Source: a virus
DNA: 38,384 nt
Direction: 5' to 3' (one strand)
Virus record (IMG/VR): IMGVR_UViG_3300048011_000498
Coordinates: 1 to 38,384 of that record
The notes below the pieces were generated by a model. The model was not told the origin of the DNA. It saw only the letters and a program-made list of their open reading frames with translations, and ran no database searches. The first letter of the stretch is position 1. Each line of letters opens with the position of its first letter. Below, piece by piece: positions 11,404 through 32,712 of this stretch. Position numbers and translations under genes: made by a program.

Positions 11404-12667
11404 AAGGCTCGAACTCTGGATTGGTAGTAAGAAAGTCTTGGCCGCGAGTTTTATCTAATGCACGATTAAAGTTTATACAATCTTGCCAATGTGTGTCGTA
11501 CATGCACTTTGATTCTAAGAAATTAATATTATCTTGTATCTGTTGTAGTGTCACAGTTTCTAATAGTTTGTGTTGCTGTACCAAAGGATATTTTAATACC
11601 TCTGTTTTCATTTGTTCTAATCGATTAACAACTTTTACTTTTAGTTCAGGAGGGAGTACTTGCGCACTTAAACTCATAGGATAAGTTACACGATGCGAAT
11701 AAAATACAATGCCTAATTTATTAATAAAGTAATCGATTACTTTGTCAATCTGCATAATATTGTTTGCTTGTACAGTAAATGCACCGACTACTCTAGTTAC
11801 ATTAGGAAAACTCTTAAACACTTCGATGTTTTCTTCTATTTCGCTAAACTTGCCGTTGCCTCTAATATATTCGTAAACGTCATGTAAGCCGTCTATGCTT
11901 ACGTTTACAGCTATGCTTTTAAACTTAGGCCAATAGTCGTGTATTGTTCTTCCGCCTTTAATACCTAGCGTTGTGCCGTTTGTAGCGTACTTTAGTTCTA
12001 TGTTGTCGCCGTACTCTGCAAGTTTGTCTAGTATCTTGTAGTGATATGGATCCATTAGCGGCTCACCGCCAGCAAACTCTACACGTCTAAAGAACGGTAA
12101 TAGTTTTTCAAATGATGCCCACCAGTTATCTGAGTTATCAAACGGTCCTATGTATTTTCCTGGAGTATCTACTAATGATTCTACAATAGGAATTAAAATA
12201 TTGTCTTCTTTTTTATAAAATTCAGTAACTTGATCCCAGTCTTTCCAACTTGTGCTGTCTAACGGATTGCACATACGACACTTTAAATTACACAAGTTAT
12301 TGAGCTTGATCTCCATAGTAGGAAACTCAAAAGGCATGTTGTAATCATCGTCTAGTGCGTCTAGTGCATCAGGGTATAAGTTGACCCTAGCTTCAGGTAT
12401 TACCCCTGCTGTATGACGCTGTCGTAAGCTCTGTACACCCTGATCTTCTAAATCAAAGCAAGGTTTGCACACTTCAGGACGTTCGTCATTAAGTACTTGC
12501 CTGCGAACTTCACGCATAGCATCACCATTCCAAACTTCCTCTAGAGTTTCATTTTGAATATATCCAATCGGCGCACTACGGCAGCATACCTTAATAGCAC
12601 CGTCTTCTCTAGTAGCTAATCCAGTAAATGGATGCATACAGAATGTGCAACTATTTGACTTCGCCAA
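11396..12667 (-). CDS. Twitch/SPASM-type radical SAM protein
   Basis: 423 residues from a TTG start at 12667. GGGAG sits seven bases upstream of the TTG, and this start puts CTFCMHPF at residues 7-14. A longer version from ATG at 12769 would add 34 residues that merely read the conserved end of the upstream gene in another frame. The N-terminal auxiliary Cys group is followed by the core CNLKCRMC (C126, C130, C133) and AGGEPLMDP. It is closest in the window to the protein at 8140. It overlaps the QueC-like gene by 17 bases, so the two are probably made together and may act on one substrate. Confidence 0.84.
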   Translation of the reverse strand: MAKSNSCTFCMHPFTGLATREDGAIKVCCRSAPIGYIQNETLEEVWNGDAMREVRRQVLNDERPEVCKPCFDLEDQGVQSLRQRHTAGVIPEARVNLYPDALDALDDDYNMPFEFPTMEIKLNNLCNLKCRMCNPLDSTSWKDWDQVTEFYKKEDNILIPIVESLVDTPGKYIGPFDNSDNWWASFEKLLPFFRRVEFAGGEPLMDPYHYKILDKLAEYGDNIELKYATNGTTLGIKGGRTIHDYWPKFKSIAVNVSIDGLHDVYEYIRGNGKFSEIEENIEVFKSFPNVTRVVGAFTVQANNIMQIDKVIDYFINKLGIVFYSHRVTYPMSLSAQVLPPELKVKVVNRLEQMKTEVLKYPLVQQHKLLETVTLQQIQDNINFLESKCMYDTHWQDCINFNRALDKTRGQDFLTTNPEFEPYV

Positions 12668-13328
12668 GAGCCCACTCCCGTTCCTTACACCAAAAACATT
12701 CTCCGCATATTGGAATATCTTGTCCAGGTGTATATGATGTATAATCCAACTCTTTAAACTCTCCTTCACAACTTCGTGTAATGTCTAATAAGTCTTCTAT
12801 GTTATTTTCATAATATTGTTTTATGATCCAGTCTTTAGTAGTATACACGAAAGGATGACAAATGTCAACTCCCATATGTTTCATTTGTAATGGTAATACT
12901 CCGTCATTACGTTCTTCTAATGCCCCAGGTATGTCTATATCTGGGTTCCTATTAACACCTGCAAACCATGCATCTAACTTATGTGCATGTGCAATAAACT
13001 CGTTGTGTGCTCTAAGTATAATTCTGTTGCCTGGTTTTAGCTTTCCGTACTCGTCAGTAATATATGTTGTGTGCGGTTCTTCCATTTCGGGAGGAATAAA
13101 TCCTTCAATGTGTTCAATGCGATTAGAAAATCTTTTACAAAACCATGCAACTACATCCTGTGCAATATAACGCTGCCAAGGGCGTGTCTTCCACATGCGT
13201 ATTTGTGTAGTAAAATATATGTCAGCATTAGTTTGTGACAATACAAGATATGCAAGCAATGCACTATCAGCTCCGCCACTAAGACTAATACCTATGCGTT
13301 TCCACGTTTGATCCAAATAAAGATTCAT
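12651..13328 (-). CDS. QueC-like PP-loop ATP pyrophosphatase
   Basis: 225 residues. The N-terminus carries the PP-loop SGGADSALLAY (17-27) of N-type ATP pyrophosphatases, which activate a carbonyl by adenylation. The C-terminus has four Cys (187, 208, 211, 214) in SC...CGECFWCKER, the zinc site layout of QueC (7-cyano-7-deazaguanine synthase). No QueD, QueE, FolE or transglycosylase gene is in the window, so preQ0 synthesis or DNA deazaguanylation is not shown; amide or nitrile formation on another substrate is equally possible. First gene of its cassette: TATAAGTA lies five bases before the ATG and there is no Shine-Dalgarno. Confidence 0.75.
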   Translation of the reverse strand: MNLYLDQTWKRIGISLSGGADSALLAYLVLSQTNADIYFTTQIRMWKTRPWQRYIAQDVVAWFCKRFSNRIEHIEGFIPPEMEEPHTTYITDEYGKLKPGNRIILRAHNEFIAHAHKLDAWFAGVNRNPDIDIPGALEERNDGVLPLQMKHMGVDICHPFVYTTKDWIIKQYYENNIEDLLDITRSCEGEFKELDYTSYTPGQDIPICGECFWCKEREWALGEVK

Positions 13329-14042: not shown

Positions 14043-15589
14043 TGCATCATGTACTTTTCTTTTCGTTAACAGGAAAAAGATGGGAACGAGCACTTTGGCC
14101 ACACCGTGTAGCTACATTTTTAAGAATGAATGACTGGGATGCCGAGGTAGTAGACTTTACAGCATTTTGGGAATTAGAAGAACTACAAGAGTTTGTGCGC
14201 AGTAGAACTACAAGTAAGACTGTTATGTTTTGTTTCGGCACTGCTTTCTTAAATCCTTGGAGCCCTTACTTAAATGATTTTATTGCTTGGTTAAAAAATG
14301 AATATCCTGATATTCCAGTGGTAGTCGGCGGCAACAATGCGTTAACAACTCCTGCTGACAATGTAGATTATTGGGTAGACAGTTACGGAGAAAATGCTAT
14401 CCTTGCATTGTGTAAACATTTAATAGGCACATTAGGAGCTCCTCTGAGATCTGATCCTACTTTTATGGGAAGCAAAAATGTTCTTAGAGGATTGCATCAC
14501 TACCCGTCAGCACCACTAGACAACTACCTTGTGGACTATGAAACACGAGACTTTATAATGCCGTATGAATGTCCTCAAATTGAAACTGCTCGTGGATGTA
14601 TGTTTGAATGTAGCTACTGTAATTTTCCTCTGTTAGGCCAATCTAAAGATGTCAGTGTAAGTAAAGAAGAATTCAAACGACAGATGCAGACAGGGTACGA
14701 CAAGTGGGGTATTAAAAATTGGCGTGTAATGGACGAAACATTTAATGATCGTCCTTCTAAATTACAAAAGTATGCTGACGCAGTAGACGAACTAGGATAC
14801 AATCCTTGGATCTGCGGCTTCGCCCGCGGAGACTTAGTTGTTAAACATAAAGAGCACTGGGACACTTATATTAGATTAGGGTTCCTAGGACATAGTATGG
14901 GACTTGAAACTTTTAACAGAGAAGCAGGCAAACTTGTGCGTAAAGGTATGGATCCGGCACAAATACAAGAAGGCTTATTGGAGTTTCAAGAATATACAGA
15001 TATTCATGCTCCTAAGAGATATAGGGCAAACATACAATTAATCTGCGGCATACCAGGAGAAACACACGAATCTTGGCATAGTTCATTAAATTGGTTAAAC
15101 ACTAAATGGAATAGACAAAGTGCCAGCGCACATATTTTAGAAATTGGCGATTATGACGAAAGCCTTACAAACCAAAGCCGATTTACTAAACAACTTAAAG
15201 ACAACGGCTTGTTGAAGATCGAGGCTAAACAAAATCCAGGGTATGACGTATATAAAGATGCTAACGGAAATGTTGTCTTTCAGTCTACTACTCCACGAGG
15301 CGGCGGCGTAGGAAGTACACGAAATGATATTGTTATATGGAAACACAATACTATGGATTGGTACCAAGCGCAGAAATTAGTAAAAGAATTTTATTCGGAT
15401 GATGGGTTTATTGGACTTCGAGGGTGCAATCCGTTTTTATCAGATAGATTATTTGTGCTAACAGAAGCAGAACGATATGAAGATATTTACGATATAAACA
15501 TGTCACAGACAGATACTAACGATCCTAAGTTTAAAACTTTTGTACAAAATTACATCGATAAAAAATTAAATCATACACTTAGTAATTAA
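14042..15589 (+). CDS. B12-binding-domain radical SAM protein
   Basis: 515 residues. The N-terminal ~140 residues fit a cobalamin-binding Rossmann domain (VVVGGNNALTTPADNVDYWV, DSYGENAI). The radical SAM cluster is CMFECSYC (C186, C190, C193), preceded by ETARG. Later segments (VMDETFNDRPSK, GLETFNREAGKLVRKGM, ICGIPGETHESW) match the class B core. It is shorter than the paralogue at 2801 and lacks that protein's C-terminal extension. Translationally coupled to the AspH-like oxygenase upstream (TAATG). Its stop shares TTAA with the convergent gene at 15586. Confidence 0.86.
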   Translation: MHHVLFFSLTGKRWERALWPHRVATFLRMNDWDAEVVDFTAFWELEELQEFVRSRTTSKTVMFCFGTAFLNPWSPYLNDFIAWLKNEYPDIPVVVGGNNALTTPADNVDYWVDSYGENAILALCKHLIGTLGAPLRSDPTFMGSKNVLRGLHHYPSAPLDNYLVDYETRDFIMPYECPQIETARGCMFECSYCNFPLLGQSKDVSVSKEEFKRQMQTGYDKWGIKNWRVMDETFNDRPSKLQKYADAVDELGYNPWICGFARGDLVVKHKEHWDTYIRLGFLGHSMGLETFNREAGKLVRKGMDPAQIQEGLLEFQEYTDIHAPKRYRANIQLICGIPGETHESWHSSLNWLNTKWNRQSASAHILEIGDYDESLTNQSRFTKQLKDNGLLKIEAKQNPGYDVYKDANGNVVFQSTTPRGGGVGSTRNDIVIWKHNTMDWYQAQKLVKEFYSDDGFIGLRGCNPFLSDRLFVLTEAERYEDIYDINMSQTDTNDPKFKTFVQNYIDKKLNHTLSN

Positions 15590-16137
15590 TATCCGATTAT
15601 GTGAAACATAAACTTTGGAGACATGCCTGCATTAATACCACTATGCCACTCGTTATGATTATTCCAACGAAATATTGATCCTCGAATACAGTCGTACAAA
15701 TAATCTTCCCCTAGCATAAAAATATGTCCAGGAGTTTTATTTCCTAGTAACATACTGTAGCGTTTAATTTCGCCTCTTTTTAAATATTCTTGTTCATTAT
15801 CGTCAACGTCCCAATGCCACGGAGCGTAGTATCCTGGATCAACTTTACTAATCCATGCACGATGCACACCTTTTAAATTTAGATGATCTGAAACATCATC
15901 AACAAACTGTTGCGGAAATTGTTCGTTAGGATAATAGTTTGTCCACTTCATAGCATCAGCATTAAAATTAGCTTCCTTCCAAATAGCATGTATTTTTCCA
16001 TACTCGCTATTGTCTAAGTTCCAGCGACTTGGATCAGTAGTAACGTCTGACCCTTGTTTGTCTTTTAATGCTGTTGTTAGATCTTTGTGATCATAAACAT
16101 TAACAAACGTACAGCTCTTTAAATTATTGTGGTCCAT
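15586..16137 (-). CDS. Small AspH-like Fe(II)/2OG oxygenase
   Basis: 183 residues from ATG 16137; an in-frame ATG at 16152 would add five residues. Metal ligands are HWD (H98, D100), followed by RYSMLLGNKTPGHIF and the distal His in NEWHSGIN (H155). Ends IIGY, like the paralogue at 20874 (ILGY). This is one of five closely similar small AspH-like proteins in the window (15586, 16852, 17378, 20874, 21458), all sharing the P-G-H-x-F strand and a W/Y-x-x-x-x-E-x-H core. The start codon lies inside an 18-base inverted repeat shared with the divergent gene; GATAAGTA is five bases before the ATG. Substrate unknown. Confidence 0.7.
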   Translation of the reverse strand: MDHNNLKSCTFVNVYDHKDLTTALKDKQGSDVTTDPSRWNLDNSEYGKIHAIWKEANFNADAMKWTNYYPNEQFPQQFVDDVSDHLNLKGVHRAWISKVDPGYYAPWHWDVDDNEQEYLKRGEIKRYSMLLGNKTPGHIFMLGEDYLYDCIRGSIFRWNNHNEWHSGINAGMSPKFMFHIIGY

Positions 16138-16142
16138 AACTA

Positions 16143-16150
16143 TACTTATC
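16143..16150 (-). promoter_or_regulatory. Late-type octamer GATAAGTA (left arm)
   Basis: Minus-strand GATAAGTA with five bases to ATG 16137; no Shine-Dalgarno before the start. Confidence 0.55.
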
Positions 16151-16164
16151 ATACATTTACAATC

Positions 16165-16172: not shown

Positions 16173-16177
16173 TAGTT

Positions 16178-16855
16178 ATGGATACGAGTAATTGGAATTA
16201 TTATTACAAAAGAACAGCTGAACGTGTAACAGCATCATCTAATATGTTATACACAGCCTTAATGAATCCAAATAAAGATATTTTATGCAAACACTATTGT
16301 ATTAACGAAGATTATCAAGGCCCTCAGTCTGGAATGACACAAGAGATAGTAGATTTCTTTTTTGAAAGAGAAGTACGTTTTTTAGAAGAGCTACAACATT
16401 TGAGCTGCACTCCTAAACTTTTAGAAATTGATCGTGCTAATAATAAAGTTTTTATAGAATGGAACACAGAAACATTATCGCAAATAATATTTGATCCAAC
16501 TAGGTCAATTGATAAAGAAATTCCTAGTTGGAAGGATCAACTGTATAGTGTTGTAAAAGAATTTAAAGATAATGGTTATTATAAACTAGCACTCTATCCA
16601 CATTGTTTCTTTATAAACAAAGACGGTATTTTAAAAATTATTGATTATTACTCAGTTGTGCCGCATGACGATTATTTTATTGAAAGAAAATTAATTGCAG
16701 GCATGATTGGTACTGAAGGGTCTTATAGATTTGATCAGTCGGAAGTTAATGGCGTAATTGATCTTAAAAACTTCTTTAATCTTACAATGAACATACACTT
16801 GCCGAAGTGTTGGCCCGACTGTCCATTCCCAGAGTTTTTTAATAAATTATATTAA
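16178..16855 (+). CDS. Degenerate kinase-like protein
   Basis: 225 residues. The order of segments recalls a small protein- or sugar-kinase fold: a Lys strand (ILCKHYC), a Glu helix (FLEELQHL), a hinge-like strand (VFIEWNTETLSQI), a catalytic-loop-like LALYPHCFFINKDG, then LKIIDYYS where DFG or its equivalent would be. The usual HxD catalytic Asp is not evident, so it may be inactive or a binding protein. The protein at 28164 is a paralogue (same YYWN/YYYK start and loop order). The start lies in the right arm of the inverted repeat. Kinase-like fold is an inference from pattern only; otherwise unknown. Confidence 0.45.
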   Translation: MDTSNWNYYYKRTAERVTASSNMLYTALMNPNKDILCKHYCINEDYQGPQSGMTQEIVDFFFEREVRFLEELQHLSCTPKLLEIDRANNKVFIEWNTETLSQIIFDPTRSIDKEIPSWKDQLYSVVKEFKDNGYYKLALYPHCFFINKDGILKIIDYYSVVPHDDYFIERKLIAGMIGTEGSYRFDQSEVNGVIDLKNFFNLTMNIHLPKCWPDCPFPEFFNKLY

Positions 16856-17376
16856 TCGTGTAATGTAATTTGTAACGTAAGCCTAGGAGTGTATCCAATG
16901 TTAGTAGGCCCGTGTATACATTCAGGATCACTCCATTCGTATAAATCACCTGCTTTATAGTTAGATAACATTTTATCATCATATGCAAATATGTGTCCAG
17001 GCTCCCAGTCTTGTAAGAACATAGTGTATCTTACAAAATTAGTAAGTTCGGTTAAATGCGGATCGACATGCATTGCTTGAAATTCCCCAGGGTATAGTTT
17101 TACAAACCACCAAAACTGATATTTTCTAGTATCTGGTAAATCAGGATACACAAAGTTGTATCCTTCCATTTCTGGTGATCCTGCGTTAAGCTGATGGAAG
17201 AAAAACTTATTATTTGAGTATCCTGGTCTTGCCATTTCTCTAAACTTTTCTAACGTTTCATTGCCTGTCCAGCGATCAGGTTGCCATACTGGAGTCGTCT
17301 CGCCTTGTTTACTGTTTAACATTTCTATAATGTTATTTTCAATAATCCAATCTGCATAATTACCTATATAATTCAT
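16852..17376 (-). CDS. Small AspH-like Fe(II)/2OG oxygenase
   Basis: 174 residues. The N-terminus MNYIGNYADWI is shared with its neighbour at 17378 (MIFIGNYKEWV) and with 21458 (MEYIGNESEWI). Ligands are HVD (H103, D105), then RYTMFLQDWEPGHIF and the distal His in CIHGPTNIG (H155). The segment FVKLYPGEFQAMH matches 21458 nearly residue for residue, so those two are recent paralogues. One base separates it from the upstream gene. Its stop shares TTAA with the convergent kinase-like gene. Hydroxylation of a side chain or sugar is a family expectation; the target is unknown. Confidence 0.7.
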   Translation of the reverse strand: MNYIGNYADWIIENNIIEMLNSKQGETTPVWQPDRWTGNETLEKFREMARPGYSNNKFFFHQLNAGSPEMEGYNFVYPDLPDTRKYQFWWFVKLYPGEFQAMHVDPHLTELTNFVRYTMFLQDWEPGHIFAYDDKMLSNYKAGDLYEWSDPECIHGPTNIGYTPRLTLQITLHD

Positions 17377-17377
17377 T

Positions 17378-17875
17378 TTAATCTCTTTCGTATGTGCTAA
17401 AATGAAAAGTTAATCTTTTGGAATAACTTATATTACATGCACCGTGAATTTCATTTGCGTCAGGATATTGAAAAATATCACCTTTTTTATAATTAGTTAG
17501 TACTTGATCTTTGTATTGAAAGATGTGTCCTGGAACATACTCTTGCATAGCAATCCAATATCTTTTGCACTTTTTAAAACTGTGAGTATGAGGATCAGTG
17601 TGCATAGGCATAAAATTTCCAGGATTCATTTTAATACCCCACCAAATATTATCTAAGTGACTGTCAAATGGTATTGTAATTTCAAACGGAAAAGTGTGTG
17701 ATTCGTAAATGTACCAATACGTGCTAGTTAAGTCATACCCTGCGGAAGTAGCAATTTTAAATTCTTCACTGTCTGGATTAGGTCCACCACCGGGTCTGCT
17801 AGTTCCGTCGTTATTAGACATAAACTCAACATATTCGTCTTTAACCCATTCTTTATAATTACCTATGAAAATCAT
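17378..17875 (-). CDS. Small AspH-like Fe(II)/2OG oxygenase
   Basis: 165 residues. Ligands are HTD (H92, D94) in FMPMHTDPHTHS, then RYWIAMQEYVPGHIF and the distal His in NEIHGACNIS (H144). It shares the IGN start and the GHIF...KKGD core with 16852 and 21458, but lacks ~10 residues of the N-terminal linker. First gene of a two-gene cassette. AGTATATA ends five bases before the ATG and no Shine-Dalgarno is near; an AAGG lies too far upstream to serve. Confidence 0.7.
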   Translation of the reverse strand: MIFIGNYKEWVKDEYVEFMSNNDGTSRPGGGPNPDSEEFKIATSAGYDLTSTYWYIYESHTFPFEITIPFDSHLDNIWWGIKMNPGNFMPMHTDPHTHSFKKCKRYWIAMQEYVPGHIFQYKDQVLTNYKKGDIFQYPDANEIHGACNISYSKRLTFHFSTYERD

Positions 17876-17951: not shown

Positions 17952-19532
17952 ATGAAAGAACTTGTAATTGTCGGCGGCGGCACAGCAGGATGGTTTGCAG
18001 CAGGGTGGCTATCAAAACAACACAAAGATATAAACATTACAGTTATTGAATCTCCTGACATTCCAAAAATTGGTGTAGGCGAAAGTGTCACTCCGCATGT
18101 GGCATTATTTTTTGATTATCTTGATCTTCCGTGGCAACAGTGGATGTATGAAACCGGAGCAATATACAAGTATGCTAATAAATTTGTTGACTGGAAAACT
18201 GGTAACGGAGAATACGAATATTTCAGTTTTGCACCTAATGTTGATGCTAAGTTTATGCATAAAGATACAAGTCAGCCTATGTCTAAAGAAGATTGGCATG
18301 TAGACTTATCTAGAACTAGACTCACAGACTTAATTTTAGATCTTAATACTAGCAAAGACTTTTCACGCTTTGATCAGTATTTTGATAGTCAGTATCATTA
18401 TATGGAAAAAAATACTGCACCGTATATTGGAAAAGAATATCTTTTGAATCCATTGTTTAGTTGGAGTCAACATATAAATGCAGACTTAGCATCTGACTTT
18501 ATAAGAGACAATATTGCATTGCCTAACGGTGTAACACATATAAAAGATAAAGTTGTCGATGTTGTATTTGAAAACGAAACAGTAAAGTCTTTAATTTTAG
18601 AATCTGGAAAAACTATAACTGCTAATTTTTATTTAGATGCTTCTGGTTTTAATCGTGTACTTATTTCTAAATTAGGATGGAAAGAAAAGTTGTATGAAGA
18701 TAATCCTGTTGACAGCGCCTGGGTGTGTCAACTAGATTATAATGATCCTGAAAATGAGATGGTTAATTACACACAAAGTATTGCTAAAAAACATGGCTGG
18801 TTATTTAAAATAGGGTTGTATCATCGAATGGGTACAGGCTATTGCTTTAGTTCTCAGCATGTAAGTGACGACCAAGCGTTGACAGAATATTTAGAAATGA
18901 TCGGGCCAAATGCGCTCCGAAAAGAACCTCGTTTAATTAAATGGAAACCATCTAGGCTAGAACAAACTGCAAAGGGCAATGTTGCAGCAATTGGTCTTAG
19001 CTCCGGATTTGTTGAGCCAATGGAAGCAAATGCATTATATATAATAATTAACAGCATACAATTATTTTCAAAATCTCTCAAAAGTTCAGACTTTACAGAA
19101 CTAAATGAAAAAATGGCATATGCATTAGATGATATTGCAGATTTTATTAAGGTGCACTATTCTTTAAGTCAGCGTACTGATTCTAATTTTTGGTTAGATA
19201 TGCAACAGCAGGGAATAAAGAACAATCATAAAGATCTTATGTATGAAAAATACATAAACGATAAAAATTTGATGATTAATTCTATTAGTGGATATACTAT
19301 GTTTCCAGATTATATGTGGGCCCAATTAGCACACGCCTGGGATATTGACACTAAAAAATGGTATAAACCGCCTACAGAATTAGATTTAAAACTTACTAAA
19401 ATTAATTTAGAAGCACAGGAAGCAAAACATAATTTAGTAAGTTCTGTTTCAAAAAATAATTATCAATGGTTAAAAGAAAATATATTTAACAATTTAACAT
19501 ATAGCGAATGGAGTAGTAAACGAGGATTATAA
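17952..19532 (+). CDS. Flavin-dependent (tryptophan-type) halogenase-like protein
   Basis: 526 residues from ATG 17952 (an in-frame TTG lies nine bases earlier). FAD loop GGGTAGW (8-14), GVGES (about 41-45), the GAIYK segment carrying the Lys (K73) that matches the conserved catalytic Lys of flavin halogenases, and SSGFVEPMEA with the Glu (E355) of the active site. The WxWxIP motif of known chlorinases and brominases is changed to WLFKIG (283-288), so halide use is uncertain. Family members need reduced FAD from a partner reductase; none is seen here, so the host would supply it. Heads a cassette with an SDR, a methyltransferase and an AspH-like oxygenase. Confidence 0.85.
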   Translation: MKELVIVGGGTAGWFAAGWLSKQHKDINITVIESPDIPKIGVGESVTPHVALFFDYLDLPWQQWMYETGAIYKYANKFVDWKTGNGEYEYFSFAPNVDAKFMHKDTSQPMSKEDWHVDLSRTRLTDLILDLNTSKDFSRFDQYFDSQYHYMEKNTAPYIGKEYLLNPLFSWSQHINADLASDFIRDNIALPNGVTHIKDKVVDVVFENETVKSLILESGKTITANFYLDASGFNRVLISKLGWKEKLYEDNPVDSAWVCQLDYNDPENEMVNYTQSIAKKHGWLFKIGLYHRMGTGYCFSSQHVSDDQALTEYLEMIGPNALRKEPRLIKWKPSRLEQTAKGNVAAIGLSSGFVEPMEANALYIIINSIQLFSKSLKSSDFTELNEKMAYALDDIADFIKVHYSLSQRTDSNFWLDMQQQGIKNNHKDLMYEKYINDKNLMINSISGYTMFPDYMWAQLAHAWDIDTKKWYKPPTELDLKLTKINLEAQEAKHNLVSSVSKNNYQWLKENIFNNLTYSEWSSKRGL

Positions 19533-20099
19533 ATGAAAATAGGAATAACAGGTCATACACAGGGGTTCGGAAAGTCTTTATATGATGTTTTTAACTCTCA
19601 AAAACATGATACTTTAGGATTTAGCAGAAGTAACGGGTTTGATATTGGAAACAAATTAGTTAGAAAGAAAATTATTAACGAAATAAAAGACATTGATGTT
19701 TTTATTAATAATGCATATGATCCTCAAGGCCAGTTAGACATTCTTGAAGAAGTTTTAAGCTGCTGGTCCGGTACAGAAAAGATTGTTGTAAACGTTTCGA
19801 GTATAATAGTAAATAAGGAAATTCCCTATTTTGAAGGAGAGTTAGCGGTATACAGAGAATCAAAAATTAAATTAAACAATATAATAAAAAATTATAAAGG
19901 TTCTGTAAAAATAATAAATATTATACCGAGCTTAATGAATACTAACTTTGATATTATACCTATTAACTTTGATAGATCTAATAGTATTGATACAGATGCT
20001 CTTGCAGAATTGATATATACTATGATTAAACATCATAACAACTTTTTTATAAAGGAAATAATTGTAGATAACAATGGAACATTTAAAAGTAACCTCTAA
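19533..20099 (+). CDS. Short-chain dehydrogenase/reductase (SDR)
   Basis: 188 residues with the SDR cofactor loop TGHTQGFG (6-13), FINNAYD (58-64, the NNAG equivalent), a catalytic Ser region (NVSS, 87-90) and YRESK (Y107, K111). It is shorter than most classical SDRs (about 250 residues), having lost part of the substrate-binding C-terminus. It begins directly after the halogenase stop, with GAGG seven bases before the ATG. NAD(P)-dependent oxidation or reduction of the cassette's substrate is likely; the substrate is unknown. The last 26 bases overlap the methyltransferase start. Confidence 0.8.
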   Translation: MKIGITGHTQGFGKSLYDVFNSQKHDTLGFSRSNGFDIGNKLVRKKIINEIKDIDVFINNAYDPQGQLDILEEVLSCWSGTEKIVVNVSSIIVNKEIPYFEGELAVYRESKIKLNNIIKNYKGSVKIINIIPSLMNTNFDIIPINFDRSNSIDTDALAELIYTMIKHHNNFFIKEIIVDNNGTFKSNL

Positions 20100-20838
20100 T
20101 AAAGGCGATCTCAATGTCAGTTGGTACAATAAAGATAAGTTAGCCTGGTATGCTACTCAACAAGGCGGCTGTTATTTTGCAGATCTTAAAGATACTAACT
20201 GGAAATCACCAGATAAATTTATACCAATACATGATGCGAATTTTCATAATTGGCATCAAGAACAATGGCGGCAGAGAGAAGAAATGTCTGTATTCGATAT
20301 ACCGGATGGTGCAAAAATTATTGATATTGGCTCTGGTGCGTCAGTTATTGATTTATTATTATATTCTTATATCCCAAATTCTATTTTTTATTTAATTGAT
20401 AAAGAGGACGAATGGCCGAATTCTGTTCATCCTTTAGATGTTGTATACACTGAATACCATCCGTTTTATCATTCGTGGAATACAGTTTTAGATGCAATCA
20501 CTACTTCGAAGTTTGATTCTGATAGATTTAATTTTCTTAGCCCAGATAACAATTTTCCAGAAGATGTAGATTTAATTATGTCGTCGTTTTCCTATTGTTT
20601 TCATTATCCTAAGGATCAGTACTGGGAGAAAATTTTAAATTCTCTTAAAAAAGGCGGCAACTTATTTTTAGATGTAAGATTGCTACCTGATAGAAATATA
20701 ATTGAAGAAATAAGTGAAGACTTAAAAAGTAAGCCAACGATGATTAAAATTCCTACTCTATCTAATTATTTAGATAGCCCTCCTAATGTAGAATTAGATA
20801 CAGTTGCTTATCGTTGTTTATGGAAGAAAAATACTTAA
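20074..20838 (+). CDS. Class I SAM methyltransferase-like protein
   Basis: 254 residues. A strand-1/glycine loop KIIDIGSGASVIDLLL begins near residue 81; an acidic strand-2 end (FYLIDKEDEW) and a strand-4 VDLIMSSFSYCFHYPKD followed by LKKGGNLFLDVR complete the core. The first ~75 residues (Trp- and His-rich, HNWHQEQWRQ) are unassigned. The ATG used overlaps the SDR by 26 bases without an obvious ribosome site, so a slightly different start is possible. Third gene of the halogenase cassette. Confidence 0.72.
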   Translation: MEHLKVTSNKGDLNVSWYNKDKLAWYATQQGGCYFADLKDTNWKSPDKFIPIHDANFHNWHQEQWRQREEMSVFDIPDGAKIIDIGSGASVIDLLLYSYIPNSIFYLIDKEDEWPNSVHPLDVVYTEYHPFYHSWNTVLDAITTSKFDSDRFNFLSPDNNFPEDVDLIMSSFSYCFHYPKDQYWEKILNSLKKGGNLFLDVRLLPDRNIIEEISEDLKSKPTMIKIPTLSNYLDSPPNVELDTVAYRCLWKKNT

Positions 20839-20873: not shown

Positions 20874-21461
20874 ATGAATAAATTTGATCCCTCAATATTA
20901 AGATTACAAGATAGCAGTTATGTAGGCCAATATGAAAAAACAGATTGGAGTGATATAATTGAACAACTTGATACTACTACTAAACCTCTTACTGTGCATC
21001 AAAATACACCGGCATATGAAGATCAATGGGATAGTAATCCGTTATACCAACAAATGTATTCGTCATGGGTAGAAAATAGTTTTAATCCTGACAGTATTAA
21101 GTGGCGTAGTTTTTATCCAGGAGTACACTTTGACAAATTAGTAGTCGATGCAATGGCATCTCATTTAGAATTAGATACTGTTCACAGTTGTTGGATTAGT
21201 CGTATTGATCCGGGATTTTTTGCACCATTACATTGTGATCCGTTTGTTGACGATATTCATGATACAGAAAAGGGCGAACTTAAACGTTATGCAATTTTTA
21301 TAACCCCTTCGGAATTAGGACACATCTTTATAATAGGCCAAGACCATTTATACAATTTTCCAGTAGGTACTATTATTAAATGGAACAATCCTAATGAGTT
21401 ACACATTGGTATTAACGGAAGTATGAAGACCAAATATATGGTTAATATTTTAGGTTATTAA
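20874..21461 (+). CDS. Small AspH-like Fe(II)/2OG oxygenase
   Basis: 195 residues. Ligands are HCD (H120, D122) in FFAPLHCDPF, then RYAIFITPSELGHIF and the distal His in NELHIGIN (H177). It ends NILGY. It is most like the protein at 15586 (same WISRIDPG/WISKVDPG stretch and the E-L/I-K-R-Y core). It has its own late-type octamer (20840) and an AAAGG seven bases before the ATG. Its stop shares TTAA with the convergent paralogue at 21458. Confidence 0.72.
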   Translation: MNKFDPSILRLQDSSYVGQYEKTDWSDIIEQLDTTTKPLTVHQNTPAYEDQWDSNPLYQQMYSSWVENSFNPDSIKWRSFYPGVHFDKLVVDAMASHLELDTVHSCWISRIDPGFFAPLHCDPFVDDIHDTEKGELKRYAIFITPSELGHIFIIGQDHLYNFPVGTIIKWNNPNELHIGINGSMKTKYMVNILGY

Positions 21462-22051
21462 CTAGCTTTGTCATACATAACTAGTTGTAAAGTATATCTA
21501 GGCTTAAAACTAATATTTATAACACCATGAAGTGTTTCTGGATTATTCCATTCATAAAGGTCTCCTTTTTTATAGTTTACACTTAGATTATCGTCGTATA
21601 TAAAGGCATGTCCAGGATGGTAATCTTGTAAAAACATTGTATATCGTTTTGGATTTGTTAGCTTTTTTGCACTAGCAACATTTGTAAATTCTGGATCATC
21701 GTGTGCTACCCCTAACAAAATTGCATCGTAGTGCATGAACTGAAATTCGCCAGGATTTAATTTAGTAAACCACCAAACAATAGATGCCTGTGATGGTATA
21801 AGATTGGGTAAGGTAAAATTAAAATTTTCCATGCAATCAGTTTGACTATAAAAAACATGGAAAAAATTATTTGGTATTGTATCGCCGTAATAGTTTTGCC
21901 CAGCAACACCGACTTCTTCTAATAACGGATGCCCTCGAAATCTATTACGATCCCATACCGGAAGTTTACTACCAGTATTATTTGTTAACAGTGACATTAA
22001 TTCGTCAGATATCCACTCCGATTCGTTGCCTATATATTCCATATTAATCAT
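21458..22051 (-). CDS. Small AspH-like Fe(II)/2OG oxygenase
   Basis: 197 residues. Ligands are HYD (H107, D109), with a ~20-residue insertion (VAHDDPEFTNVASAKK) before RYTMFLQDYHPGHAF; distal His in ETLHGVINIS (H175). GGAGA seven bases upstream supports ATG 22051, although paralogues begin at the equivalent of ATG 22042 (MEYIGN). It overlaps the upstream gene by 8 bases. Close paralogue of 16852, now on a different cassette, which suggests copying or shuffling inside the island. Confidence 0.72.
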   Translation of the reverse strand: MINMEYIGNESEWISDELMSLLTNNTGSKLPVWDRNRFRGHPLLEEVGVAGQNYYGDTIPNNFFHVFYSQTDCMENFNFTLPNLIPSQASIVWWFTKLNPGEFQFMHYDAILLGVAHDDPEFTNVASAKKLTNPKRYTMFLQDYHPGHAFIYDDNLSVNYKKGDLYEWNNPETLHGVINISFKPRYTLQLVMYDKAS

Positions 22052-22682: not shown

Positions 22683-23492
22683 TTAATATTCTCCTAAATG
22701 ATCAACTCCGAGTGTTTTACGGAATTCGTCTGTAAATTCACCGTCTACTCGTAGTGCATAGCTTTGTTCCATTATGCGATCTCCGCCGTGCCAGTCTTGA
22801 TCGTTCCACCAAGCTGCTCGAGTATTAAGATATGTTTTGTTTTTAGTTTCCGGATCCCATATATAAAACGGTTTTTTGGTATTAGGACGAATGTGTATAA
22901 ATTCGTTTTTATGCGGAAAGCTTTCGTTCATGCCATTCTTAGCATCTAAGTCTCTGTGCTCAAAAGGAATACCGTCTGCATCACAATGGAAGAAAATAAC
23001 TCTACCGATGTGTTTGAATATGTTTTGATTGATTAAATTTTCAACCCAATTAACTGTTTCAGGAAAATATTGTGCTTCTTCAGTTAACTTTCGTTCTGCC
23101 GTTCTGTCGTCCCAACTGCCTTCTTCCCAAAGGAAATAATAAATGTAAGGATCGTATGCCCCCATTGCCATTTTTAGAAAACGAGTAAAAATATTACGCT
23201 GTTTATAATCACTAAAGTCTTGTGGCATAATTTTAGCTCCAGCTTGTTTAATTGGATCTTCATCAGGTAGCTGCTGCCATTCTTCTAGTGCTTGATATAT
23301 AGGTTTCCAATTATGAATATAGCTCATGTCTTCAAATGTAAATCCCGGAGTCATCCAAGTTGCTTCTTTTGCATATTCTCTTGCTAATGCGAAGCCTGTT
23401 ATAATTTCAGGCTGTAATTTTTCAAATCCGTCCATATCGATATATTGTTCCATATCAAAATACGGTATTCCGTCAATTCCTCTATTTGCCAT
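22683..23492 (-). CDS. Fe(II)/2OG oxygenase-like protein with long N-terminal region
   Basis: 269 residues. The first ~165 are helical and Trp/Tyr-rich with no domain I recognise. A compact oxygenase-like core follows: HRD (H179, D181) in GIPFEHRDLDA, EFIHIRPNTKKPFYIWD, and the distal His in QDWHGGDR (H235) with SYALRVDGEF (R248). Likely a hydroxylase of the same broad fold, more divergent than its neighbours. It overlaps the Tes-like radical SAM gene by 11 bases. Confidence 0.58.
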   Translation of the reverse strand: MANRGIDGIPYFDMEQYIDMDGFEKLQPEIITGFALAREYAKEATWMTPGFTFEDMSYIHNWKPIYQALEEWQQLPDEDPIKQAGAKIMPQDFSDYKQRNIFTRFLKMAMGAYDPYIYYFLWEEGSWDDRTAERKLTEEAQYFPETVNWVENLINQNIFKHIGRVIFFHCDADGIPFEHRDLDAKNGMNESFPHKNEFIHIRPNTKKPFYIWDPETKNKTYLNTRAAWWNDQDWHGGDRIMEQSYALRVDGEFTDEFRKTLGVDHLGEY

Positions 23493-24540
23493 AATTGTCT
23501 ATCCATTCCTTTGGTATTGTATCTAGTAGTGGTAGTTTTTTATTAATTGCTCCGTCTCTAAGAAGTACTTGATGCACTAACGGACTTGGGGGCTTCCCAG
23601 GTAATATGTCTGCAATTGCCTCTGTCTGTACTTCACTTAGATCTAGTGTTTCTGCACTTGGCCACTGTATAATTTTAGTAGCCAGACCGTTGATTCTTAC
23701 TGGATAATGTGCTCGATTACCGGATTCAGGTTCTCTTTCAAAAGTATATCCTTTAGATTTACAAATTTCTTCTGTAGCATTAAGTAAATCACTTAAAAAC
23801 ACTTGTTCGTTGTCTTCTGGAGACCTTCCAATATCTACACCACAACGAATCCTAAACTGGTTACAATACTTAGTACCAAAACTAATAAGTTCATCAACAC
23901 AATCTTCTAGTTGTGTAAGATTTAACAAGGTGTATGAAATATTTTTAATTGGAAGATTATACTTCATCATATTTTTTATACCTTGCATTTGTTTCTTTCG
24001 TACTACAGGCCCTTGGTAGTCTGTGTGATTTAACCCAATAGTCCACATAAGATCTTGTATACCTTCAAACTTTTTTGCATAGTCTTCTTTGTGCATATTA
24101 ACGCCGTTAGTTAATACCATTATGGTACGTTTCTTTCCGGGAAGATTGTGTATACGGTTTATAATTTCAGGTAGGTCTTGTCTTACTGTAGGTTCAGCTC
24201 CTACAAGTGCAACAGGATATCCGTCATCAGGCCAGGATTGAATTTTATCAAGCATAGTTTCGATTGCAGGATCAGTTGATTTATTATCAGGCATTTGGTA
24301 ACAATGCGGACAAGTTAAGTTGCATCTATTAGTAATTTCTATAAAATAGCTTTGTAATGCATGTCTATGGTAAACATAATTGTTATAAAACTCTGCATCT
24401 AGTTCTACTAGATGTGTTGATTCTCCGTGCTCCGGACACGTTTTAGTTAACCAAATGCTATTGTTTTTTTCGAATCGAGTTGCCGAAACGTGTCTATAAC
24501 AATGGTGACATATCGACAATGTATTTTTGATATTATTCAT
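23482..24540 (-). CDS. Tes/MJ0619-like radical SAM protein
   Basis: 352 residues. An N-terminal metal site CHHC (C11, C14) and TCPEHGE (C35, H38) precedes the core CNLTCPHC (C73, C77, C80). This N-terminal Cys/CPEHG arrangement, followed by a LVELDAEFY-type link, is the layout of archaeal MJ0619 and of tetraether lipid synthase (Tes) relatives. The SAM loop is GAEP in place of GGEP. Paralogues are at 24540 and 27054. Family resemblance is by motif; lipid chemistry is not shown. Starts at TAATG with the upstream paralogue. Confidence 0.8.
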   Translation of the reverse strand: MNNIKNTLSICHHCYRHVSATRFEKNNSIWLTKTCPEHGESTHLVELDAEFYNNYVYHRHALQSYFIEITNRCNLTCPHCYQMPDNKSTDPAIETMLDKIQSWPDDGYPVALVGAEPTVRQDLPEIINRIHNLPGKKRTIMVLTNGVNMHKEDYAKKFEGIQDLMWTIGLNHTDYQGPVVRKKQMQGIKNMMKYNLPIKNISYTLLNLTQLEDCVDELISFGTKYCNQFRIRCGVDIGRSPEDNEQVFLSDLLNATEEICKSKGYTFEREPESGNRAHYPVRINGLATKIIQWPSAETLDLSEVQTEAIADILPGKPPSPLVHQVLLRDGAINKKLPLLDTIPKEWIDNYGK

Positions 24541-25679
24541 TACTTAATATCCTTGGGTCGTTTTCTAGGATCGTTAATAGTGTAATCAAACTCGGTAAAT
24601 TCAACAGGCCCAGACCAGTTTGTTTTCCAGTGACTAGAACCAATTTCATCTACTGATTTTATATGATAAAACTCTGGAGTTAAATCGAGCCTTTTTTGGT
24701 TATTGTTTATAAATGCATCTCTAAGAATAACTTGATGTACAAAGTTAGTAATAGGACCGTCCTGAAAGTTAGCCCATGGCCCAGTATTAAGTTCTTCCAT
24801 ATCGATATTACGAACATCGGGCCATTGTATAATTCTTAAGGTAACTCCTCTCCAGTTATACATTACATGATATGGATTATCGTCATACGGAGTTGCTATT
24901 AATTCGTCTCCGACAATTGATCGAATCTTTGCTAACGTTTTACTTAAAAAATTTCTATTCTGGTCACTACTTCTACCAATAAAACTTCCAAGTCTAATTC
25001 TTACTAATTTAACGCCTTGCGTAGCAACTTTTTCTATTTCCTCTAATATTTCCGGAATGTGGTCAAGATTTTCAATAGTGTAACCAAAATCGTCTAATGT
25101 TCCAGTTGCTTCTAAGATATTGTTAATTCCTCTTAGTTGCTTTTTGTGTACTTTTTCTCCTTGATATGACCAATGATTAAGTCCAATTGCCGCAGTAATA
25201 TTACGTCCTTCCATTAGACGTTTTGTAAACTTCATATCTGCAAATCTTAATCCGTTTGTAAGCAGTCTAGTTTGACCATATTTTTCTGCTAGTGCATGTG
25301 CTAGAGGAATAATATCATTATACAGTGTACATTCAGCACCTGCTATCATAGGCATATGCCAATCTGGGTAAGTATCTACTTGCGACAACACAGTTTGTAA
25401 CGGCTCGTCTATATATTTGTTATCGGGTAATTGATAGCAATGGGGACAATTGAGCTGACATTTATTAGTTGCTTCGAACATTAATGCTCGGATATTGCCT
25501 GTTTTTTGTTTGGTTATTCCGTAGTAAAATTGTGCATCGATTTCAACAAGTTCTTTTTGTTCCCCATGATCTTGACATTTTTTAGTTAACCATATTTTAT
25601 CTTCATCTTCGTAGACAATGGCAGGCACGTGCCTATAGCAATGATTACAGAGACTAATTGTATCGTGAATGAACTTCAT
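24540..25679 (-). CDS. Tes/MJ0619-like radical SAM protein
   Basis: 379 residues from ATG 25679. N-terminal CNHC (C11, C14) and KCQDHGE (C35, H38), core CQLNCPHC (C74, C78, C81), and the SAM loop is GAEC, losing the Pro of GGEP. An extended C-terminus (about 30 residues, Trp- and charge-rich) is absent from the two paralogues. GGTAAATA lies five bases before the ATG and there is no Shine-Dalgarno; an upstream in-frame ATG at 25712 lies beyond that octamer and reads promoter DNA, so it was not used. First gene of a five-gene minus cassette. Confidence 0.8.
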   Translation of the reverse strand: MKFIHDTISLCNHCYRHVPAIVYEDEDKIWLTKKCQDHGEQKELVEIDAQFYYGITKQKTGNIRALMFEATNKCQLNCPHCYQLPDNKYIDEPLQTVLSQVDTYPDWHMPMIAGAECTLYNDIIPLAHALAEKYGQTRLLTNGLRFADMKFTKRLMEGRNITAAIGLNHWSYQGEKVHKKQLRGINNILEATGTLDDFGYTIENLDHIPEILEEIEKVATQGVKLVRIRLGSFIGRSSDQNRNFLSKTLAKIRSIVGDELIATPYDDNPYHVMYNWRGVTLRIIQWPDVRNIDMEELNTGPWANFQDGPITNFVHQVILRDAFINNNQKRLDLTPEFYHIKSVDEIGSSHWKTNWSGPVEFTEFDYTINDPRKRPKDIK

Positions 25680-25686
25680 ATAAATA
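25679..25686 (+). promoter_or_regulatory. T4-type late promoter octamer TATAAATA
   Basis: Exact TATAAATA on the plus strand, 19 bases before ATG 25706; it overlaps the minus-strand start codon. A second octamer nearer the ATG lies at 25693. Confidence 0.45.
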
Positions 25687-25700
25687 TTTACCAATAAATA
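25684..25700. repeat. 17-bp bidirectional promoter repeat, copy 1
   Basis: ATATTTACCAATAAATA. Minus-strand GGTAAATA (25685-25692) abuts plus-strand AATAAATA (25693-25700); each lies five bases from the ATG of its gene (25679 minus, 25706 plus). It matches copy 2 at 28129-28145 in 16 of 17 bases. Confidence 0.75.
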
Positions 25701-25705
25701 ATTAT

Positions 25706-26452
25706 ATGACATATATTATTGAAAACTTTTTTACACCTGAACAATGTAATACTGCTTTAGACACTATTAATAGTTTAGAAACAGATTGGAAAAAATGTCA
25801 TCATACTAGTATGTATATTTTAGGCAATAGTCTTTTTCGAAAGTTTAATATTAATAATGAAAACATAACCTACGGAACTTATTTTGACGATAATACATAT
25901 TTTTTTGAATCTGCAGAATTATTAAAAGAAAAATTAAAAACACAATTTAAAGAGGTAACCTATACTAAAAATTTTAGTCGTCCGGGATTTCAGTTAATAA
26001 AACGTAACGAAGATAGCCGTCCGTCAGTATGGCATTACGATAATATGATAACCTGTTTTCCTTACGAACTAGAGTTTAAAGACTATAATAATGATTTTTC
26101 TAATTATTTTGATGAATATTATATCTTTACTTTGATGTTATCAGACGAAATTGGAAGTTTTGACTACTATTCAGAAACAGAATCAACATTTGGAAAAGAT
26201 ATTTACCAAGCATCGACAATCACTCCTATATGTAAACAACATGTAAATCTGGTAGGCGACAACTGTTCTAATTTAAATTGTAATCTTAAAGATTATAAAA
26301 CACTTTATTATAATAAAGGTTCGTTATTAGTACAAAATGATCGTGTTCTGCACAGAGTTGGGAATAGAGATATCAACGGCAACAACACAATACGTGCTAC
26401 ATTGCAAACTTATGGAGTTGTTAAAAACGAAATTCTTTACTTGTTTTGGTAA
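25706..26452 (+). CDS. P4H-like Fe(II)/2OG oxygenase
   Basis: 248 residues. Begins like prolyl-4-hydroxylase-type enzymes (YIIENFFTPEQC). Ligands are HYD (H110, D112) in SVWHYDNM, the distal His in RVLHRVGNRD (H216) and a 2OG Arg (R230). Between them is an Asp/Tyr-rich insertion of about 70 residues. Single-gene cassette. AATAAATA stands five bases before the ATG with no ribosome site. The 3' end overlaps the convergent methyltransferase by 16 bases. Confidence 0.72.
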   Translation: MTYIIENFFTPEQCNTALDTINSLETDWKKCHHTSMYILGNSLFRKFNINNENITYGTYFDDNTYFFESAELLKEKLKTQFKEVTYTKNFSRPGFQLIKRNEDSRPSVWHYDNMITCFPYELEFKDYNNDFSNYFDEYYIFTLMLSDEIGSFDYYSETESTFGKDIYQASTITPICKQHVNLVGDNCSNLNCNLKDYKTLYYNKGSLLVQNDRVLHRVGNRDINGNNTIRATLQTYGVVKNEILYLFW

Positions 26453-27054
26453 ACGATAAAGGTAAAAAGCTCGTATCCTACTTTTTCTCTAAGGACATTA
26501 TAATTATATAAACGAGTTTGTTCTTTAACTTCGGATATATTATAAGCTGCTTTGAAAGAATTTTTTACATCGATGTCAAAATGATTTTGTATATATTTTA
26601 ATTTTTTAGGTCTTTCTAAATCGCATACTAAAATATTTTCTGATAGTGTATTAATTAAACTCCAAAAATTTTTGGTGTTGCTTATGTGATGTAATACACG
26701 ATTAGCAATTACAACATCAAATGTTCCTTTAGCATTGAAAAAATTATCTTGAATAACTGTTATACGATCTTGTAAATCGTTGTCACTAATATTTTTATTA
26801 GCTATTTTTATCATAGCACTACTGCCTTCGTAGCAAGTAGCAGTTAGATCCGGATGCACCTTGCATAGCTCTATTATAAAGTTTGCTGTTCCTGATCCTA
26901 AGTCAATAATAGAGCCTTGAAATATTCCGATATATGTGTTGTATATTTCTATAAATTTCGATAATGCATTTTCGTTATCTACAAGAGATTGATTATAAGT
27001 ACTGCATTGTTCTTCGCTCTCCATTAATTCGGGTTCAGGAATTCTTTTAAGCAT
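26437..27054 (-). CDS. Class I SAM-dependent methyltransferase
   Basis: 205 residues with a good class I core: IIDLGSGTANF (about 49-59), strand 2 ATCYEGSSAMIKIA, and strand 4 FDVVIANRVLHHIS. Strand 5 (NILVCDLERPKK) follows. The N-terminal ~45 residues form a helical lid. It starts at TAATG with the Tes-like radical SAM gene upstream, so the two are coupled and may modify one substrate in turn. Methyl acceptor unknown. Confidence 0.8.
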   Translation of the reverse strand: MLKRIPEPELMESEEQCSTYNQSLVDNENALSKFIEIYNTYIGIFQGSIIDLGSGTANFIIELCKVHPDLTATCYEGSSAMIKIANKNISDNDLQDRITVIQDNFFNAKGTFDVVIANRVLHHISNTKNFWSLINTLSENILVCDLERPKKLKYIQNHFDIDVKNSFKAAYNISEVKEQTRLYNYNVLREKVGYELFTFIVYQNK

Positions 27055-28100
27055 TATCGATATTTCTTTGGTAATGTATCAAACAACGATTTTCTTTCAT
27101 TGACTGCTCTATCTCTTAATATAACTTGATGTAATAGTGGACTTTTTGGTTTTCCTGGAACTACAGTTGCCCAAGACTCGGAATAGATTTCTTCAAAGTC
27201 TATTGTTTTAACATCGACCCATTTAATAAATCTATGTGTAATTCCGTTTATTCTTACCAAATAATGTGTGCGATTTCCGTTTTTTTCATCTACTTCCCAC
27301 GACCAACCTTTTTCATTACATACACGTTCTGCTGTTTTGACTAGCTCTGATAAGTAATGTTCTGGTTCATCTTCGTCTGGAGTGCGTCCAATTTCAACAC
27401 CTAGCTGTATTCTTGCATCGCTGCACACTCCCTTACGATGCCATTCTTGAATTTCTTCTAGAACATCATCTAGCTGATTCATAGTACCTAATGTGTAAGT
27501 AAAATTCTTAATAGTAAGTCCTAGCTCAATGCAGTTGTCTATGCCTATTTGCTGTTTTTTTCTAATAACACCACCGTTATAATCTGGATGGTTAAGACCA
27601 ATGGTCCATGTTAACCCTTCTATGCCTGCAAATTTTTCTGCATATGCACGTTTACCTAAATTTATTCCGTTAGTAACAACCATTAGCCATCTTGGCTTTT
27701 CAGTTAGTGCTTGTATATCTTTTACAATGTCTGGTAAGTCTTTTCTTGTTGTAGGTTCGGCTCCTACAAGTGCAATAGCCATATCATCTGGCAGTTTTTT
27801 AGTTTGGTTTATTATTGAAACAATTGTAGGATCTATTGACAGATTGTCTGGCATTTGATAACAATGGGGACAATCTAAGTTGCATCGATTAGTTATCTCA
27901 AACCAGAAAGTATTAGGCAATCTACGTTCATATTTGAAATTAAGATAAAACTCTGCATCTATTTCTACTAAACATTCATGGTATCCGTGCTCAGGACATG
28001 TTTTACTTAACCATATCTGGTTGTCTCTTTCAAATCGTACTGCTGGTACATGTCGATAACAGTGTTCACACATTGATAATGTATCTTGTAGTTTATTCAT
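27054..28100 (-). CDS. Tes/MJ0619-like radical SAM protein
   Basis: 348 residues. CEHC (C11, C14), TCPEHGY (C35, H38), core CNLDCPHC (C73, C77, C80) and GAEP as SAM loop. It is nearest to the protein at 23482, with shared stretches such as ITNRCNL and MPDN. GAG about seven bases before the ATG serves as a weak ribosome site. A minus-strand GGTAAATA about 30 bases upstream is part of a bidirectional promoter repeat. Followed by a coupled methyltransferase gene. Confidence 0.82.
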   Translation of the reverse strand: MNKLQDTLSMCEHCYRHVPAVRFERDNQIWLSKTCPEHGYHECLVEIDAEFYLNFKYERRLPNTFWFEITNRCNLDCPHCYQMPDNLSIDPTIVSIINQTKKLPDDMAIALVGAEPTTRKDLPDIVKDIQALTEKPRWLMVVTNGINLGKRAYAEKFAGIEGLTWTIGLNHPDYNGGVIRKKQQIGIDNCIELGLTIKNFTYTLGTMNQLDDVLEEIQEWHRKGVCSDARIQLGVEIGRTPDEDEPEHYLSELVKTAERVCNEKGWSWEVDEKNGNRTHYLVRINGITHRFIKWVDVKTIDFEEIYSESWATVVPGKPKSPLLHQVILRDRAVNERKSLFDTLPKKYR

Positions 28101-28145: not shown

Positions 28146-28163
28146 CCAGTGAGGAACAACGTT

Positions 28164-32267: not shown

Positions 32268-32712
32268 TTTAGAATATTTAGACTTGCCTAAAATACCAGA
32301 CTATTTACTAGTTGACATATATCAGACTATTAGAAATACTTCTGCGGCAGATAGGCACTCTAATAAAGAAGGCACGGATGCAGAAAAAAATGCTGCATGG
32401 AATAGTATAAAGGCAAGCGATAAGCTAAAACAGTTTGTAGCAACGTTGTTTCAAGAAGAACACGATGTTCATATTTTTGTTTTATCTGCAGACTTGCCTA
32501 TGCACAAAGATAATACAAGAGATGTAGCATACAACTATGTACTAGAAACAGGCAATGCTCTTACTAATTTTCACAATGATGACGGAAATGTAATAGAATC
32601 TCATTCTATTACTACCTTTCAGTGGCATAAACTAGATGTTTCGACATACCATAGTGTATCTATTCCGAATGGTCCTAGGGTAGTAGTGAGTGTATCAATA
32701 CACTGGGATTAA
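32260..32712 (+). CDS. Small Fe(II)/2OG oxygenase-like protein
   Basis: 150 residues from ATG 32260 in the overlap with the upstream gene. HKD ligands (H82, D84) in ADLPMHKDNTRD, distal His in STYHSVSIPNG (H131) and an Arg (R140) before VVVSVSIHW. It is among the shortest oxygenase-like proteins in the window and has only a minimal beta-helix core. Likely a paralogue of 31704. Its stop shares TTAA with the convergent AMP-ligase-like gene. Confidence 0.6.
   Translation: MSNLEYLDLPKIPDYLLVDIYQTIRNTSAADRHSNKEGTDAEKNAAWNSIKASDKLKQFVATLFQEEHDVHIFVLSADLPMHKDNTRDVAYNYVLETGNALTNFHNDDGNVIESHSITTFQWHKLDVSTYHSVSIPNGPRVVVSVSIHWD

Follow-up and report, generated by a model that had tools for sequence, protein, structure and literature searches.

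The window analyzed here is the whole of the IMG/VR virus record IMGVR_UViG_3300048011_000498, a stretch of 38,384 nucleotides. This 38 kb record carries 12 radical S-adenosylmethionine (SAM) genes, all within positions 1-28100, and five cupin-fold oxygenase-like paralogues, and toward the right end it has phage genes that belong to PHROG 1297 and 1314. Our subject is a single gene in this setting that encodes a homologue of the flavin-dependent halogenases (FDHs). A first-pass annotation made from the sequence had called it a phage halogenase-like enzyme with an altered WxWxIP motif. This description is borne out by a match to PF04820, by a predicted FDH fold and by a change of motif (to WLFKIG in the window) that is clade-wide. 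The gene and the relevant elements of its product, with the basis of each in brackets, are as follows.

17952..19532, + strand: WxF-type FDH homologue, 526 aa (open reading frame, PF04820, AlphaFold2 and Foldseek)
17973..17993, + strand: flavin adenine dinucleotide (FAD)-binding motif GGGTAGW, residues 8-14 (sequence)
18168..18170, + strand: K73 in GAIYK, equivalent to catalytic Lys79 of PrnA (alignment; invariant in 48 of 48 clade members)
18798..18815, + strand: WLFKIG at residues 283-288, replacing WxWxIP (alignment)
19023..19025, + strand: E358, equivalent to catalytic Glu346 of PrnA (alignment)
19026..19034, + strand: A359-N360-A361, aligned with S347-T348-G349 in the halide-binding loop of PrnA (alignment; role of this loop region from PMC5945002)
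19302..19319, + strand: FPDYMW, residues 451-456, a clade-specific conserved C-terminal motif near the PrnA tryptophan site (alignment)

The frame is uninterrupted from the ATG at 17952 to a stop that ends at 19532, and an alternative TTG start nine bases upstream is possible. In a profile search the protein matches PF04820 with E = 1.2e-85 and 288.6 bits, against a curated cut-off of 21, and it matches PHROG 2928 with E = 2.7e-90. By sequence the nearest solved structures are those of RebH (8e-59) and VirX1 (1.5e-56), followed by PrnA. An AlphaFold2 model calculated from 13 aligned phage sequences has a mean predicted local distance difference test score (pLDDT) of 85.7 and a predicted template modeling score (pTM) of 0.88. 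Foldseek comparison of the model with the PDB places PrnA, VirX1, PyrH, RebH, Thal and BrvH at the top, with template modeling (TM) scores of 0.75-0.82. Set against known FDHs, the predicted structure thus has the FDH fold with the Lys/Glu pair present; loss of the pair, which had been named beforehand as evidence to the contrary, did not occur. Judged by profile, predicted fold and catalytic pair, the window gene is a real FDH homologue.

Residues were mapped by an alignment to the PrnA sequence that reproduces the published numbers (K79, W272, W274, P277, E346, T348 and G349). The FAD loop, GAIYK with K73 and GFVEPME are all present in the open frame, as first described. The Lys/Glu pair was correctly noted too, with a wrong glutamate. 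GFVEPME spans residues 352-358; E355, previously taken as catalytic, is the first Glu of EPxE, and it is E358 that aligns with E346 of PrnA. In the altered motif W272 of PrnA corresponds to W283, W274 to F285 and P277 to G288. Because WLFKIG replaces the WxWxIP that is usual in the FDH superfamily, we file the enzyme as an FDH variant and not as a typical member. At the tryptophan site of PrnA, the residues Y443, Y444, E450, F454 and W455 become N, L, S, M and F. The Trp-binding residues and Trp4 motif by which tryptophan FDHs (groups A and B) are recognized, the latter being their marker (PMC8269204), are not present in the window enzyme. Since the PrnA residues are not kept and the clade has its own FPDYMW there, the sequence makes free tryptophan, bound in the manner of PrnA, an unlikely substrate.

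Comparison with known enzymes gives a consistent picture. PrnA, RebH and PyrH share with the window enzyme PF04820, the FAD motif, the catalytic Lys and Glu and the overall fold, but differ from it by the changes W274F, T348N and P277G and in the Trp-binding residues. BrvH and the bacterial group C FDHs also have no Trp4 motif, and this group does not act on tryptophan (PMC8269204), yet BrvH keeps WxWxIP (PMC5945002). VirX1 of cyanophage Syn10 (PDB 6qgm), which has been characterized biochemically (reviewed in PMC8407142), resembles the window enzyme as a phage-borne two-component FDH of the same fold (TM 0.74-0.77) with the Lys/Glu pair. In both the free-tryptophan site is absent, and no flavin reductase was found in the phage. 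However, the two are 29% identical, and VirX1 has GWVWNIP and EST where the window enzyme has WLFKIG and EAN.

Two scans of IMG/VR for relatives found 21 and 90. The second used the patterns IG[VI]GESVT and [IV][YH]K[YL][AG]N[KC]F, both of which lie outside the WLFKIG motif. A set of 83 IMG/VR sequences was reduced to 48 that are non-redundant at 95% identity. The equivalents of Lys79 and Glu346 are kept in all 48; so are Phe at the W274 position and Asn at the T348 position. Position 277 is Gly in 29, Ser in 9, Asp in 4, Ala in 3 and Pro in 3. Among the 80 best bacterial relatives from GTDB, Trp is found at 274 in every one and Asn at 348 in none, with Pro at 277 in 62 and Gly in 15. The last figure led us to reject Gly for Pro at 277 as the diagnostic change. 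From these alignments the diagnostic pair of the WxF clade is W274F with T348N. Phage FDHs from outside the clade were also aligned: Trp at 274 is kept by every one but that of P-TIM40, which has Tyr, and Asn at 348 is seen in a few, never together with Phe at 274.

A maximum-likelihood tree unites the 48 sequences in a single clade with support of 100/100, and next to it stand the cyanophage enzymes of the VirX1 type. The latter are on their own branch (100/99), and the window enzyme is not inside it. Its position is thus among the FDHs, and a grouping with non-halogenating monooxygenases, which would have told against the first-pass annotation, was not observed. Members of the WxF clade diverge down to about 30% identity. 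The ratio of nonsynonymous to synonymous substitution (dN/dS) is 0.03-0.19 over 11 pairs, some with near-saturated dS, and this together with the open frame led us to reject a pseudogene. A GTDB scan with the clade's own motifs gave 36 stretches and no relative. In a second GTDB scan the best bacterial relatives among the matches listed have at most 34% identity, and all are of the WxW type. The clade has been found so far only in viruses, and the scans support, without proving, that it is phage-only. We conclude that the gene is real and conserved and that its product is a phage-borne FDH from a new subfamily. Phage FDHs as such, and a halogenase-bearing phage island, were already published; among cyanophages, 20 of 153 genomes are listed with halogenases (PMC10452541).

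The altered motif raises the question of which reaction is catalyzed. WxWxIP has been proposed to shield the substrate site and so prevent hydroxylation (PMC10696468, PMC5945002, PMC8407142), and a recent review calls the role of its residues unclear and asks for it to be probed (PMC10696468). The WxF enzymes might then be hydroxylases derived from halogenases and dependent on reduced FAD (FADH2), where W274F, with Pro277 also lost, opens the shield, C4a-hydroperoxyflavin hydroxylates the substrate and halide is not used. Fixation of Phe at 274 throughout the clade, together with Asn at Thr348 of the halide loop, would agree with this, as would a neighborhood rich in oxygenase-like genes. Yet Lys79 and Glu346, which are required for the use of hypohalous acid, are invariant in the same 48 sequences. 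It is backbone amides that bind the halide, and a change of side chain at this place is tolerated in BrvH (PMC5945002). WxWxIP is usual, not universal, and some active FDHs, such as Bmp5, are without it (PMC8407142). Gly at 277, as we have seen, is shared with 15 of the bacterial FDH relatives. On balance we think a hydroxylase unlikely.

A first handle on the substrate is provided by a neighboring gene. Lineages I and II are the two deepest of the WxF clade, and here an ANL adenylating enzyme is encoded directly upstream of the halogenase on the same strand in 8/8 and 5/7 members respectively (13/47 relatives overall). The ANL enzyme of lineage I is most like 4-coumarate- and feruloyl-CoA ligases, a resemblance that does not fix its substrate. 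No flavin reductase of PF01613 was found in seven records searched, one of them 265 kb long, and for this reason the phage would depend on its host for FADH2. Phage-encoded acyl or peptidyl carrier proteins are present in the lineage I records G024, G027, G028, G031, G032 and G034, which also have the ANL-halogenase pair.

From family, fold, residues, clade, selection and neighbors we infer something of the activity, halide, substrate and product. With moderate confidence we favor a two-component FADH2-dependent halogenase, belonging to a phage-only WxF subfamily and acting on an activated substrate other than tryptophan. A host flavin reductase would supply the FADH2, oxygen and halide would give hypohalous acid at the flavin, and K73 with E358, to judge from their conservation and the fold, would deliver this to an electron-rich substrate. 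The substrate would not be free tryptophan; more likely candidates are an aromatic acid that has been activated and perhaps tethered, or a larger product of the island. The idea of activation comes from the ANL enzyme being the gene directly upstream in the two deepest lineages. Through W274F and T348N the chamber for flavin and halide would take another shape, which may shift the preference among halides or bring the substrate closer to the flavin.

Several observations weigh against the proposed halogenase on an activated substrate. The window belongs to lineage III, where the ANL gene is adjacent in 0 of 33 members, and a search of lineage III records yielded no carrier protein (PF00550). 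A tethered substrate for the window enzyme is therefore only an extrapolation from the deeper lineages. Variant B FDHs, whose substrate is tethered to a carrier, are recognized by an adenylating enzyme and a carrier protein encoded in the gene cluster. In the WxF clade the ANL gene is adjacent in lineages I and II only, and where carrier proteins of PF00550 do occur, in six of the larger records of lineage I, tens of kb separate them from the halogenase. Lastly, the motif that has changed is the very one proposed to prevent hydroxylation.

The window does have an ANL gene, which is truncated and lies 13 kb from the halogenase, directly downstream of a fiber-like gene.

32709..33353, - strand: short ANL adenylating enzyme, 214 aa, truncated (PF00501, 5e-20)
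33422..34483, - strand: fiber-like protein encoded upstream of the ANL gene, its N-terminal domain of the major-tropism-determinant type (PF18454, 2e-9)

AMP-binding open frames of a length similar to that of the truncated gene were seen in records G024, G027 and G028. In three WxF loci of lineage II (L016, L093 and L102) the order is fiber-like gene, ANL gene, halogenase; the window keeps the first two, but without the halogenase. This order bears on another interpretation, in which phage FDHs including those of the WxF clade modify virion proteins, the halogenase and its oxygenase-like neighbors acting on aromatic side chains of tail fibers or adhesins. Fiber-like genes also precede the VirX1-type FDHs in six phages or records (Syn10, S-RIM44, P-TIM40, S-CREM1, Sf-FR1 and G005), and the VirX1 gene, unlike the window gene, stands in a conserved array of them. 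However, by the test used a fiber-like gene is present in just 5 of 47 WxF neighborhoods, and the window halogenase is 13 kb from its own. Moreover, the fiber region is known as a site of hypervariable cargo (PMC7029224), and proximity may reflect shared cargo space only. We consider modification of virion proteins very unlikely. Taken together, the six-phage array and the lineage II order suggest, weakly, that phage FDHs may act on fibers. The same two features, the conserved array upstream of VirX1-type genes and the fiber-ANL-halogenase order, underlie the further proposal that phage FDHs of both the VirX1 and the WxF kinds act on the phages' own fibers or adhesins by halogenation or hydroxylation of side chains, which is less likely still. 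If true, it would tell us what viral halogenases act on physiologically, and virions would be modified in a new way.

Some further features of other phage halogenases were observed. The VirX1-type genes in six phages (L023, L024, L042, L043, L045 and L028) follow homologous glycine-rich fiber-like proteins and one small conserved protein of about 140-165 aa, the FDH coming next either directly or behind a second FDH gene. The fiber-like protein is annotated as tail fiber in Sf-FR1. One phage record of 265 kb (G005) has five FDH genes, of which one is VirX1-type, three are in tandem and one is WxF-type about 160 kb away (L028, i.e. G005:30001-50000, at 2553-4169 and 12400-16983; and L005). In S-RIM44 the protein AOO13082.1 (L025:4004-5440), annotated as a tryptophan halogenase, has its catalytic Glu changed to Gln (EPLQAT), and is possibly inactive or altered.

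Downstream of the window halogenase are two genes that had been read as a short-chain dehydrogenase/reductase (SDR) and a methyltransferase, together forming a tailoring route with it.

19533..20099, + strand: short SDR-like protein, 188 aa, abutting the halogenase gene (NCBIfam SDR, 8.5e-6)
20074..20838, + strand: putative class I methyltransferase, 254 aa (motif IIDIGSG only)

The arrangement is as described, since the first gene abuts the halogenase and the second overlaps the first by 26 bases. The names are much less secure. The SDR match of 8.5e-6 is far below its cut-off, and the protein has no match in Pfam or the PDB; the putative methyltransferase, named by its motif, has no Pfam, NCBIfam or convincing PDB match. 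Of 47 non-redundant relatives, 14 have an SDR homologue no more than 7 kb from the halogenase (adjacent to it in 1), and none has a homologue of the window methyltransferase. We therefore rejected the SDR-methyltransferase cassette as a conserved unit, and the tailoring route is not supported; the recurrent partners are others.

These partners belong to the island around the gene, for which the features of the window are listed below.

5470..13328: g06-g13, which form the core of the radical SAM island, comprising six radical SAM enzymes, a methyltransferase-like protein and a QueC/TilS-like protein (shared with G005 and G014)
15586..16152, - strand: cupin-fold oxygenase-like paralogue (alignment)
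16852..17376, - strand: cupin-fold oxygenase-like paralogue (alignment)
17378..17875, - strand: cupin/double-stranded beta-helix-fold oxygenase-like protein g19, with invariant H92-x-D94...H144 (alignment, AlphaFold2 and Foldseek)
20874..21461, + strand: cupin-fold oxygenase-like paralogue (alignment)
21458..22051, - strand: cupin-fold oxygenase-like paralogue (alignment)
22683..23492, - strand: uncharacterized conserved neighborhood protein (16/47 relatives have a homologue)
23482..28100, - strand: three HMPTM-type (zinc-ribbon) radical SAM enzymes, not contiguous (PF23545, PF04055)
28149..29392, + strand: conserved neighborhood proteins g32 (homologue in 15/47 relatives) and g33 (18/47)

Island genes g06-g14, g26, g32 and g33 recur with the halogenase in G014 and G005, the core g06-g14 in shuffled order. 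Megablast of the island against phages gave no match. In lineage III the neighborhood genes that recur encode radical SAM enzymes, an aminotransferase, a protein judged by eye to be amidinotransferase-like (no Pfam match), a small CPFAK protein, g26, g32, g33 and the cupin-fold oxygenase-like proteins. The protein at 22683..23492 has a 71% identical homologue in L014, where it adjoins the halogenase. A homologue of g19 is directly upstream of the halogenase in 6 of 47 relatives. The AlphaFold2 model of g19 (pLDDT 90.5) is a cupin barrel, and its Foldseek matches are cupins and Fe/2-oxoglutarate (2OG) oxygenases. The invariant HxD...H set in this predicted fold fits an Fe(II) oxygenase, without proving one.

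The CPFAK/CPYAK protein, of 138 aa (L002:4704-5120 and relatives) and without a Pfam match, is next to or near the halogenase in 17/47 relatives, and is absent from the window. Two halogenase frames were seen as fusions, L006:2615-4591 with the CPFAK protein and L007:3833-6043 with a methyltransferase-like domain. Each comes from a single assembly and might owe its fusion to loss of a stop or to a frameshift error.

Islands of related kinds have been described. The cluster of cyanophage S-SSM6a (PMC7824862) resembles the window in being a phage island of halogenase, oxygenase (there of the 2OG type), cupin and methylase genes, and was read as serving the decoration of surface polysaccharide or the making of a secondary metabolite. 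Its halogenase is of the WxWxIP type, and the window island is instead dominated by the 12 radical SAM enzymes. The host-recognition cluster of the pelagimyophages (PMC7029224) is likewise a variable island with fiber genes and radical SAM cassettes, a likeness that does not imply that the window phage is one of them; islands of that group also carry glycosyltransferases, and the word halogenase is absent from that paper. Phages CP220 and CPt10 have 11-12 radical SAM genes (PMC2853527). The window gene could thus be an ordinary member of such a published island, directed to surface polysaccharide or a small secondary metabolite, with a motif altered by neutral drift. Drift is difficult to reconcile with strong purifying selection and with two specific substitutions that are fixed in 48 of 48 sequences even where identity falls to about 30%, and the S-SSM6a enzyme keeps WxWxIP. 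We regard this explanation as distinctly unlikely. An argument in the first-pass annotation from the chloride and bromide of sea water is not supported, as the window does not establish sea water as its source.

The WxWxIP motif is treated as a hallmark of the FDHs, and motif searches that demand it would miss the WxF family. The family amounts to a natural experiment on what the motif does: 48 diverse enzymes under strong purifying selection have kept the Lys/Glu pair while fixing Phe in place of the second Trp together with an Asn in the halide loop.

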